Shown here: piece by piece, positions 1 through 60,009 of the stretch
Layout: the number at the start of each line of letters is the position of its first letter
Numbering within the stretch: the first letter of the stretch is position 1
Source: Gemmata massiliana
GTDB taxonomy: Bacteria; Planctomycetota; Planctomycetia; Gemmatales; Gemmataceae
Direction of reading: 5' to 3'
NCBI GenBank assembly: GCA_000531095.1
Contig: HG799472.1
Span: forward strand, 1 to 64,000
Length of the DNA: 64,000 bases
Translations under genes and position numbers: made by a program
Notes under the pieces: model-generated
Databases searched by the model: none
Told to the model about the DNA's origin: nothing
The model's input: the letters and a program-made list of their open reading frames with translations, nothing else

Positions 1-50
1 CACGATCCCACCCGAATCGGGAAACACGGTTCGGGCGCGGAAACGTGAAC

Positions 51-11727: not shown

Positions 11728-11744
11728 GAATCTGTGTTCCGGTT

Positions 11745-11941
11745 GTTCGGCCGTGCCGGGTGCAGTTAGCTCGGTGGTTTCCACCAGGATGATGTTGCGT
11801 CATCCGAGCACTTGCTTTTCGACCCCTCCGCGGGGACCGCTGTTCCAGCACCGCTATCCGGACGATATCGTCCGAGTCACGGATGGCCGCGAGCGCTCCG
11901 TGCCCCAGGTTCAGAAGTAACCGCACCCGGCACGGTCGAAC
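11745..11941. repeat. 19-bp inverted repeat bounding structured element copy A
   Basis: The arms 11745-11763 and 11923-11941 are complementary over 19 nt with a single G-T pair. They enclose structured element copy A and a 16-nt palindrome at 11859-11874. The right arm ends 15 bp before the kinase stop codon at 11956. The unit may be a small mobile or dispersed element inserted between two converging genes. Confidence 0.6.
11766..11858 (+). ncRNA. Candidate structured RNA element, copy A
   Basis: From TTAGCTC to CGCTATC this 93-nt sequence aligns almost gap-free with 41464-41555. Hairpin 1 (11773-11785) is GGTGG-TTT-CCACC. Hairpin 2 (11787-11805) is GGATGA-TGTTGCG-TCATCC. GCTC (11769-11772) and GAGC (11806-11809) can close a three-way junction around them. 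A GCTG-TTC-CAGC hairpin follows. Compared with copy B, paired bases change together while unpaired loops and the flank CGCTGTTC-AGCACCGCTATC are conserved. Strand is assumed; the reverse strand folds too. Function unknown. Confidence 0.5.
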
Positions 11942-11955
11942 GATCGGAATCGCAC

Positions 11956-41395: not shown

Positions 41396-41463
41396 GGGCT
41401 GCTCCCGTGCTTGCGAACCCGTGGCCAGCGGGGTAAAACGGCGAGTGTTGGTTGTGGATTCGT

Positions 41464-41555
41464 TTAGCTCGTCGCTCTGCGACAGGCTGATGTTGCGTCA
41501 GCCGAGCACATTCCACCACACTCGTCGCGGGGAACGCTGTTCTAGCACCGCTATC
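41464..41555 (+). ncRNA. Candidate structured RNA element, copy B
   Basis: Second copy of the element at 11766-11858. Hairpin 1 (41471-41483) is GTCGC-TCT-GCGAC and hairpin 2 (41485-41503) is GGCTGA-TGTTGCG-TCAGCC. GCTC (41467-41470) and GAGC (41504-41507) close a possible three-way junction. GCTGTTC-TAGC and CACCGCTATC follow. Three base pairs of hairpin 1 and one of hairpin 2 differ from copy A on both sides at once. Strand is assumed. It lies between converging genes, 68 bp after the dsbD stop. Function unknown. Confidence 0.5.
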
Positions 41556-41638
41556 GGCCGGGTCACCCCCGGGTTCCCGGCGGTCTGGAGCAACCCCGCG
41601 GGTCGTGGTTCCGCCGGGAACCCGGGGGTGACCCGGCC
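41556..41638. repeat. Perfect 28-bp inverted repeat next to structured element B
   Basis: Arms 41556-41583 and 41611-41638 match perfectly over 28 bp, with a 27-nt spacer that is itself GC-rich. It directly abuts element copy B. In copy A the equivalent position holds a shorter 8-bp palindrome (11859-11874). Confidence 0.75.
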
Positions 41639-41700
41639 GGCGTTGCCGTGAGCGTTCCGCGCATCAGGTCGGGAAGTAGACTTACACACGACTAACGCCG

Positions 41701-41734
41701 AACGCCCCGAGTTTACCTCGGGGCGTTTTGCATT
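41701..41734. terminator. Bidirectional intrinsic terminator
   Basis: AACGCCCCGAG (41701-41711) and CTCGGGGCGTT (41717-41727) form an 11-bp stem with a 5-nt loop, followed by TTGCATT. It serves the minus-strand gene ending at 41752 from the far side and transcripts running through the dsbD 3' region. Confidence 0.75.
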
Positions 41735-41751
41735 GAGTGGTGCCGCTTCCG

Positions 41752-59193: not shown

Positions 59194-60009
59194 TTATTTG
59201 TATAATCGCCAATTTATTGCGCATTGAGATGTGGCGCGAATAATGCTAACTAGGTCGCACGCATAAATCCACGAACAGCTAAAGCTGTTCAGTTCGACGA
59301 GTCGTAAGCCATCGGTCGATTCGCACACATCGAGTATGAAGACATCGTCTGGTCGCCATCCGACCGTTTCAAACATTGCATTGGCAAAAGTGAGCGCTTC
59401 GTTCGGGCAGCCCGCGGCAACGGATCTGGTGCCGCCTTCCGCGTACCGATTCGCGGCGATCACCTCGTTGTGCGCAACAACCAACCGCCATTCAGCTCCG
59501 AGTTCGCGCGGCCCCGCGACCACGATCTTCGTTTCGGGATCGTACCGCGTCGGGGCGGGTGCGGTCTCGAAGTCGTCTTCCGCGATCAGTCGCCCGACGA
59601 ACAGCTTGTGAACACTCGTGGGCCGCGCGAACACGTACCCGTTGCGGCCGAACGTATGAAACAGTCTCTCCTTCTTGCGAATCGCGCCCGCACCCGTAAT
59701 GATTTCGTGCCGTTGATTGAGCAGAAAATCGGCGAAGTGCGGGTAGTATGCCGTGCAATCGAGGTTCTCCGGCGAGCACCACCCGCCGGGCGTCCAGCCG
59801 AGCCGGAGTATCGCGTGCCGGACGGTGGGGTACGTGCCGTAGGTGATCGCACACGAACCGGGCGGCAGCGGGGGCGGTCCCTTCACGATCTCGCGGTACG
59901 TGACGAACCGGCATTCCATCCCCTGGCGCCTCACCTCGGCCGCAAACGGCTCGATCTCGGAACCGTACACACCGGACTCGATGAGCCAATTAAGGTGGTG
60001 CGTTTTCAT
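59194..60009 (-). CDS. ATP-grasp domain protein (DUF4343-like)
   Basis: The 271-residue protein shows an ATP-grasp-like C-terminal half: FARPTSVHKLFVGRLIAEDD, PRELGAEWRLVVAHNEVIAA and DVCESTDGLRLVELNSFSCS, where the Glu/Asn pair is a likely Mg-ATP ligand set. Such enzymes ligate a carboxylate to an amine or thiol; the substrate here is unknown. The last ~10 residues run into AT-rich DNA. The ATG at 60009 overlaps the stop region of the upstream HEPN-like gene by 20 bp, so the genes are translationally linked. Confidence 0.72.
   Translation of the reverse strand: MKTHHLNWLIESGVYGSEIEPFAAEVRRQGMECRFVTYREIVKGPPPLPPGSCAITYGTYPTVRHAILRLGWTPGGWCSPENLDCTAYYPHFADFLLNQRHEIITGAGAIRKKERLFHTFGRNGYVFARPTSVHKLFVGRLIAEDDFETAPAPTRYDPETKIVVAGPRELGAEWRLVVAHNEVIAANRYAEGGTRSVAAGCPNEALTFANAMFETVGWRPDDVFILDVCESTDGLRLVELNSFSCSWIYACDLVSIIRATSQCAINWRLYK

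Follow-up and report, generated by a model that had tools for sequence, protein, structure and literature searches.

Dispersed copies of a probable type XIII retron msr-msd RNA with exchangeable msd stems in Gemmata massiliana and related planctomycetes

The window, a stretch of 64,000 nucleotides from Gemmata massiliana, contained two copies of a structured element (copies A and B) that were intergenic and not adjacent to any reverse transcriptase (RT) operon. The first-pass annotation had aligned 11766-11858 with 41464-41555 and described two hairpins that kept their pairing while their bases differed. Our comparison reproduced this alignment over 93 nt at 75% identity: three pairs in hairpin 1 and one in hairpin 2 differed on both sides, and the loop and the GCTC/GAGC pairs were indeed invariant. 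The 3' flank, which had been described as fixed, was largely but not wholly conserved. The aligned stretches represented only the 5' part (the msr and the foot of the msd) of each unit, whose length was about 210 nt in copy A and about 285 nt in copy B. Copy B (41447-41729) was a typical and complete example of the element. Copy A was a shortened derivative: its msr and long basal stem were present, whereas the msd was reduced to a palindromic remnant and lacked the apical loop (Table 1).

Table 1. Features of the two element copies in the window
Feature	Position	Strand	Basis
Copy B, promoter-like pair TTGCGA, 17-nt spacer, TAAAAC	41411..41439	+	sequence reading
Copy B, a1 (5' half of the basal stem; ends at TTTA before the presumed priming G of AGC)	41447..41466	+	homology
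Copy B, msr: TTTAGCTC, hairpin 1 (41471-41483), hairpin 2 (41485-41503), GAGC	41463..41509	+	covariation
Copy B, msd variable arm, 5' side, 29 nt	41555..41583	+	29-nt inverted repeat (100% complementary)
Copy B, apical loop (27 nt, conserved) of the msd hairpin	41584..41610	+	copy comparison, inverted repeat
Copy B, msd variable arm, 3' side, 29 nt	41611..41639	+	inverted repeat
Copy B, conserved 3' block and a2 (a2 about 41677-41696)	41640..41696	+	sequence; 3' block kept among copies
Copy B, intrinsic terminator (hairpin and TTTT)	41702..41729	+	sequence, inverted repeat
Copy B, unit extent (stretch unmatched at the orthologous G066 site)	41402..41743	+	G066 alignment
Copy A, a1, 32-nt arm of the long basal stem	11737..11768	+	inverted repeat
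Copy A, msr: TTAGCTC, hairpin 1 (11773-11785), hairpin 2 (11787-11805), GAGC	11765..11809	+	covariation
Copy A, shortened msd without apical loop; remnant CGGACGATATCGTCCG at 11859-11874	11834..11899 (outer ends approximate)	+	sequence
Copy A, a2	11918..11949	+	inverted repeat

The site of copy B was empty in the related genome G066, where the matches ended at window position 41401 and restarted at 41744 (91% and 90% identity); the intervening 135 nt were of different sequence. In another genome, G081, the orthologous site had identical arms. The basal inverted repeat of copy A was 88% complementary, and stem parsing of this copy gave no long msd stem; its G066 orthologue diverged at the same point as the shortened msd. 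The DNA of copy B had no match among plasmids. An Rfam scan of the window found no family at the gathering score, and a lax scan around copy A yielded three weak matches at E 5-10, none of them credible. RF00170, the Rfam family that bears the name of the retron msr RNA, likewise missed the copies of this genome, since its covariance model had no match at E <= 10 in the whole genome.

Copies A and B alone were thin evidence, but they belonged to a family, so that the claim no longer rested on two copies. In the genome of the window (G000; 9.27 Mb in 22 contigs), a sequence search at E <= 1.4e-6 found 27 places. A covariance model, which was built from 26 copies and represented the 5' part of the element, found 31 copies at E <= 1.4e-7 and one weak match at E 0.008; the msr of copy B matched it with 115.1 bits and that of copy A with 97.3 bits. 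A very weak match at window 59413-59507 on the minus strand (12.8 bits, E 0.85) was probably due to chance. The element was present in 18 of the 81 genomes of the family sample and in 17 of the 19 species of the genus sample, each with 7-36 copies, and the two genus members without it were near-complete genomes of 4.8-4.9 Mb. In the class sample, 29 of 248 genomes had the element; outside the family, it occurred as a single copy in six genomes that all belonged to one other family. Samples of more than 40 genomes were searched with stricter filters. Moreover, an exact-pattern scan of 84,980 species genomes returned 78 stretches, all from planctomycete records (Gemmata and Singulisphaera included). 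Two IMG/VR contigs filed as viral (L169 and L170) also carried solo copies of the ncRNA. L170 was 100% identical to the genome of the window over 3902 bp and was therefore a prophage or mislabelled host DNA.

Covariation exceeded chance in this family. Among the 26 copies, 99.3% of 442 cells were standard pairs (89.4% in shuffles), six of the 17 pairs were altered on both sides, and the covariation was 0.294 compared with 0.096 in shuffles, none of 500 being as high; further pair types were not unusually numerous (68 of 500 shuffles). In 39 distinct rows that included the second family, 99.1% of cells were paired, ten of 17 pairs changed on both sides and the covariation was 0.428 against 0.174 (0 of 500 shuffles; 17 of 500 for further pair types), with the reservation that this alignment was fitted to the covariance model and thus leaned towards it. 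The further covarying copies in Gemmataceae supported the earlier proposal of a selected RNA or single-stranded DNA structure.

Most full copies shared one fold that consisted of a basal stem, two short hairpins, a linker, a long hairpin, a 3' block and a2. The 5' arm of the basal stem (a1) ended in GTTTA and was followed by GC, together forming TTTAGC; in some copies, other bases preceded AGC. The foot of the long msd hairpin and its apical loop of about 27 nt were conserved, and its arms were variable. The conserved 3' block ended in AGTA(A/G)AC, which was able to pair with GTTTA, and a2 followed it. Duplex energies calculated for 60 copies, those without a long stem being excluded, supported a1/a2 pairing. 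Namely, a1 paired with its own a2 at a mean of -23.9 kcal/mol and with the a2 of other copies at -15.0 kcal/mol (the standard deviation of the shuffled mean was 0.5), while it paired no better with its own linker (-13.9 kcal/mol) than with other linkers (-13.6 kcal/mol). The a1:a2 duplex was stronger than a1:linker in 58 of the 60 copies. For copy B, in which a2 was placed by its cognate pairing with a1, the two energies were -22.2 and -16.0 kcal/mol. The minimum-energy folds of some copies, copy B among them, joined a1 to the linker instead of a2.

Retrons are bacterial reverse-transcriptase defence systems. The element had the corresponding layout, in which an a1/a2 inverted repeat surrounded the msr and the msd and AGC adjoined a1. 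The priming guanosine of retrons sits in a conserved AGC of the msr (PMC6868368).

Retron-class enzymes were found in the same genome. Reverse TRANSCRIPTASE were represented in G000 by six RVT_1 genes, four of which had RT_XIII as their best PADLOC family (L047 with 534 bits, L045 with 519, L046 with 355 and L049 with 166). The RT translations contained NAxxH and VTG stretches, which are known as motifs of retron RTs. The closest solved relative of the RT was the retron Ec86 RT (E = 2.1e-37), and a comparison of the RT protein with phages gave only distant matches, none of which covered 80% of the query. The remaining two enzymes were a group II intron-type protein (L044) and the antiviral DRT9 RT (L048, G000:C7:429937-433617, 548 bits). 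Both were rejected as partners because they lacked linkage: the best ncRNA match within about 9 kb had 9.9 bits (E 4.9) and was not credible.

No copy of the ncRNA was found in about 9 kb around each of the six RT genes of G000, and the copy at C8:177808 lay upstream of the L047 RT at a distance of 12.7 kb. Other genomes had the same arrangement. In 19 of the 24 ncRNA-bearing genomes that were searched for both, at least one copy of the ncRNA lay upstream of RT_XIII on its strand, at a distance of 11.6-13.4 kb. These comprised 14 of 18 genomes in the family sample (G000, G010, G032, G033, G043, G049, G051, G053, G064, G066, G070, G074, G078 and G080) and five of six in the second family; in the other five genomes, the two were on different contigs. 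Moreover, an RT_XIII of at least 500 bits was encoded by all 18 ncRNA-positive family genomes but by only eight of the 63 ncRNA-negative ones, and the two genus members without the element also had no long RT_XIII.

The genes between the ncRNA and the RT of G000 encoded HEAT-ARM_XIII, a second HEAT-ARM_XIII in two overlapping frames, and SWIM_XIII. Thus, RT_XIII, SWIM and HEAT/ARM, the type XIII combination in PADLOC, occurred together at L101 (G000:C8:176001-195000) with the ncRNA at the operon head; the scores were 1176, 1133 and 968 bits for HEAT-ARM_XIII, 623 for SWIM_XIII and 534 for RT_XIII. The scan of the intervening genes covered G000 and, in G066, the HEAT-ARM protein of 2302 aa. The second HEAT-ARM gene was in two frames in G000 (L101:5404-12307) and in the single 2302-aa frame in G066 (L102:5073-11981). 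Since the G000 gene was split by a mutation or an assembly error, the retron may be damaged in this genome. The N-terminal part of the second HEAT-ARM protein also matched WD40-type beta-propellers.

Two further RTs of G000 (L045 at C2:718k and L046 at C5:118k) were long, RT_XIII-like and extended by extra N-terminal regions, and no R1-type ncRNA lay closer to them than about 9 kb. These enzymes may rely on the dispersed RNAs as well, or on different ones. A gene with an FGE-sulfatase domain followed L046.

The distance of about 12 kb between the operon ncRNA and the RT counted against a retron, since known retrons are compact cassettes. Nevertheless, we regarded it as highly probable that the element is a retron msr-msd RNA. 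By its anatomy and linkage, it would belong to a type XIII retron and would exist both as an RNA structure and, once reverse transcribed, as a DNA hairpin.

In the genus members, every copy except the operon one stood apart from the RT. The solo full-length copies of five genus members carried signals of their own: an intrinsic terminator within 90 nt of the 3' end in 37 of 60 (0.3 in shuffles) and an upstream TTGNNN-16..19-TANNNT motif in 30 of 60 (0.75 in shuffles), where the 60 copies were related and did not amount to 60 independent trials, and copies without a long stem were excluded. None of the five operon copies tested had a terminator or the promoter motif. The signals suggested that many solo copies were likely genes rather than debris, although half of the 60 lacked the tested motif and 23 lacked a terminator, which counted against this. 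Copy B combined a terminator with a near-match to the motif; its TAAAAC box ended in C and thus only resembled the counted pattern. One solo locus (C4:453k) was kept in G066, G043, G078 and in G049 of another genus, with flanks that were 70-87% identical. Only 21 of the 32 parsed copies of G000 had a long stem, and the rest, copy A included, were truncated or degenerate. In the fragmented assembly of G080, three msd hairpins (L060, L079 and L097) had NN at the apex and no loop. This was possibly a collapse of the hairpin during assembly, so stem counts from such genomes may be underestimates.

The msd stem was the most striking part of the element. Among 118 parsed copies, 80 had an msd stem of 26-30 bp, of which 66 were perfectly complementary and 56 were exactly 29 bp long. 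In 20 copies of G000, the arms had an average identity of 37% compared with 85% for the first 46 nt of the msr. The arms were therefore usually perfectly paired, yet different in nearly every copy.

Whole arms were replaced both between tandem copies and at orthologous loci, while the remaining element was conserved. Two tandem ncRNAs before the type XIII operon of G051 (L089:9838-10440) were identical at 92/92 positions of the msr, 27/27 of the loop and 43/44 of the 3' block but at 11/29 of the arms. Similarly, the operon loci of G000 and G066 agreed at 82/92 positions of the msr and at 9/29 of the arms, and the downstream sequence was 92% identical over 1168 nt. Eight G000/G066 pairs matched in one or both flanks and had a full msd (atypical at C10:244k); four of them had unrelated arms and four had the same arms, one of the latter with a compensated base pair. 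The score of 11/29 for L031 and L117 arose only through a one-base register shift, and the arms were the same once aligned. Two flank matches to L105 of G066 (from L005 and L019) were ambiguous and were set aside. The same arms were also present at different loci, namely L024 and L005 in G000 (29/29) and L008 in G000 and L110 in G066 (28/29). Turnover was thus not universal, as identical or near-identical arms were found at four G000/G066 loci and at the G081 orthologue of copy B. It is possible that arms were exchanged by gene conversion between copies or by recombination with msDNA.

These observations bear on the possibility that the solo copies were a mostly neutral, non-autonomous mobile repeat (SINE- or MITE-like) that arose from the retron RNA, in which case only the operon copy would work. 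We considered this unlikely. The high copy number, its difference between species, the truncated copies and the empty site of copy B in G066 would fit a mobile repeat. However, the pairing retained with covariation, the abundant terminators, the perfect stems of unrelated sequence, the conservation of one solo locus across four species of the genus and a further genus, and the exchange of arms with the remainder unharmed all argued against it. Use of the solo copies in trans appeared to us rather likely.

The arms were also enriched in internal palindromes. In 64 arms, the longest gapless half averaged 3.78, compared with 2.67 in mononucleotide shuffles, 2.84 in dinucleotide shuffles and 2.44 in GC-matched genomic sequences (0 of 300 sets as high in each case). 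The excess was weaker for 4-bp palindromes (a level reached by 3, 7 and 1 of 300 shuffled or genomic sets), and for 6-bp palindromes one of 300 dinucleotide shuffles was as high. These 64 arms were what remained of the 80 after removal of arms at least 20/29 identical to a kept one; L119, which was among them, had a doubtful stem in another register. When arms sharing a 9-mer were also removed, 47 non-redundant arms were left, and 43% of them had a palindrome of at least 8 bp in the inner 23 nt compared with 12% expected (0 of 500). The genome collection provided 34 further arms, all of them less than 20/29 identical to the first set, of which 41% had such a palindrome compared with 10% expected (0 of 500). 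They were derived from the 78 pattern matches, four of which were cut by contig ends; 60 of the other 74 had a long stem, 57 were in the usual register, and 34 were left after arms at least 20/29 identical to earlier ones were dropped, the collection overlapping with the sampled genomes.

In all 98 arms, AATT occurred in 18 (1.5 expected), GATC in 14 (5.5) and GTAC in 12 (5.4). CCGG was in modest excess (40 compared with 28.3), and GGCC and CGCG were below expectation. Of the 64 possible 6-bp palindromes, 40 were present. A fixed centre of dyad symmetry was also sought, with an unclear outcome of several weak peaks (z up to 3.6); palindromes were therefore tested free of position. The enrichment alone is not proof of a bait function.

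A perfect stem of near-constant length and variable sequence would also suit a structural role, in which the solo RNAs act as RNA only (as protein-binding or regulatory RNAs or as decoys for the RT complex) and the hairpin is a rod whose sequence drifts. Free drift, however, failed to explain the replacement of whole arms where the msr was about 88-95% identical, as well as the excess of internal palindromes in two sets of arms, which left this explanation with a small probability. A still different role, as guides or captured foreign sequences that act like spacers against the DNA or RNA of invaders, would agree with cassettes that were mostly unique, replaceable and of fixed length. We found it improbable: the inner 23 nt of the window arm had no other occurrence in G000 at up to three mismatches, the two arms of G000 (out of 21; inner 23 nt) that were searched in viral contigs had no exact match there, and random captures would not be expected to hold internal palindromes. 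Finally, DNA unrelated to a retron (attC-like, REP-like or terminator repeats) would account for a palindromic, dispersed element that was intergenic in the window, but this was very hard to reconcile with its collinearity with RT_XIII in two families, its retron anatomy and its absence from the two genus members without a long RT_XIII, the linkage having already disfavoured it.

We therefore favoured a model in which one type XIII RT serves a repertoire of msDNAs encoded in trans, many of the solo copies having their own promoter-like motif and terminator, and judged it probable. The msr, which the solo RNAs retain, is taken to be what the RT recognises, so that a single RT could produce about 20 to 30 distinct msDNAs. 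A complex of RT, ncRNA and DNA keeps an effector in check in known retrons. In the model, the solo genes would be transcribed, and the type XIII RT would bind the conserved msr of any copy in trans and would prime on the G of TTTAGC beside the a1/a2 stem. The msd would then be copied into branched msDNA whose duplex, usually of 29 bp, would be specific to the copy. A complex of HEAT-ARM, SWIM and RT would be loaded with a panel of msDNAs, each of which would display a different and often palindromic duplex site. The effector would be released when a displayed site is methylated, cut or bound by a protein of a phage or plasmid; many palindromes would widen the set of triggers, and arm exchange would renew it. 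The last part of this model, that the stems are a repertoire of baits for foreign methylases, nucleases and DNA-binding proteins whose cassettes are exchanged among the solo genes, is a tentative suggestion that we hold to be somewhat doubtful.

A precedent for such sensing is provided by Retron-Asa1 and Retron-Squ1, which are reported to be triggered by a phage GATC N6-adenine methyltransferase and to have GATC in both ncRNAs (PMC12548924). The passages on these two retrons do not mention a stem repertoire, and they add that a phage glycosidase also contributes in the case of Retron-Asa1 (PMC12548924). Retrons are otherwise described, in passages of two reviews, as one transcription unit with one template RNA (PMC6868368, PMC8867640). 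The type XIII retron considered here differed in that its ncRNA occurred in up to 36 copies per genome, which were mostly solo and had differing msd stems. In our literature search, neither dispersed msr-msd copies nor a type XIII ncRNA were described, although an earlier prediction of the ncRNA may exist. Retron-Eco1 (Ec86), the source of the closest solved RT, may share further features with the element: its msr also starts with TTAGC beside a1 and has a second hairpin of the form GGATG-loop-CATCC. Unlike the system described here, Ec86 has one compact cassette, one ncRNA and another effector.

The interchangeable stems would offer ready-made msd inserts for retron editing tools. Every stem varies naturally while the RNA around it is constant, which would make it directly testable what msDNA senses. 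About 30 mostly solo templates with precise stem exchange and a palindrome bias would show how a retron broadens its sensing. If this is true, the genus would possess an innate immunity with a diversified and replaceable library of sensors made of DNA.
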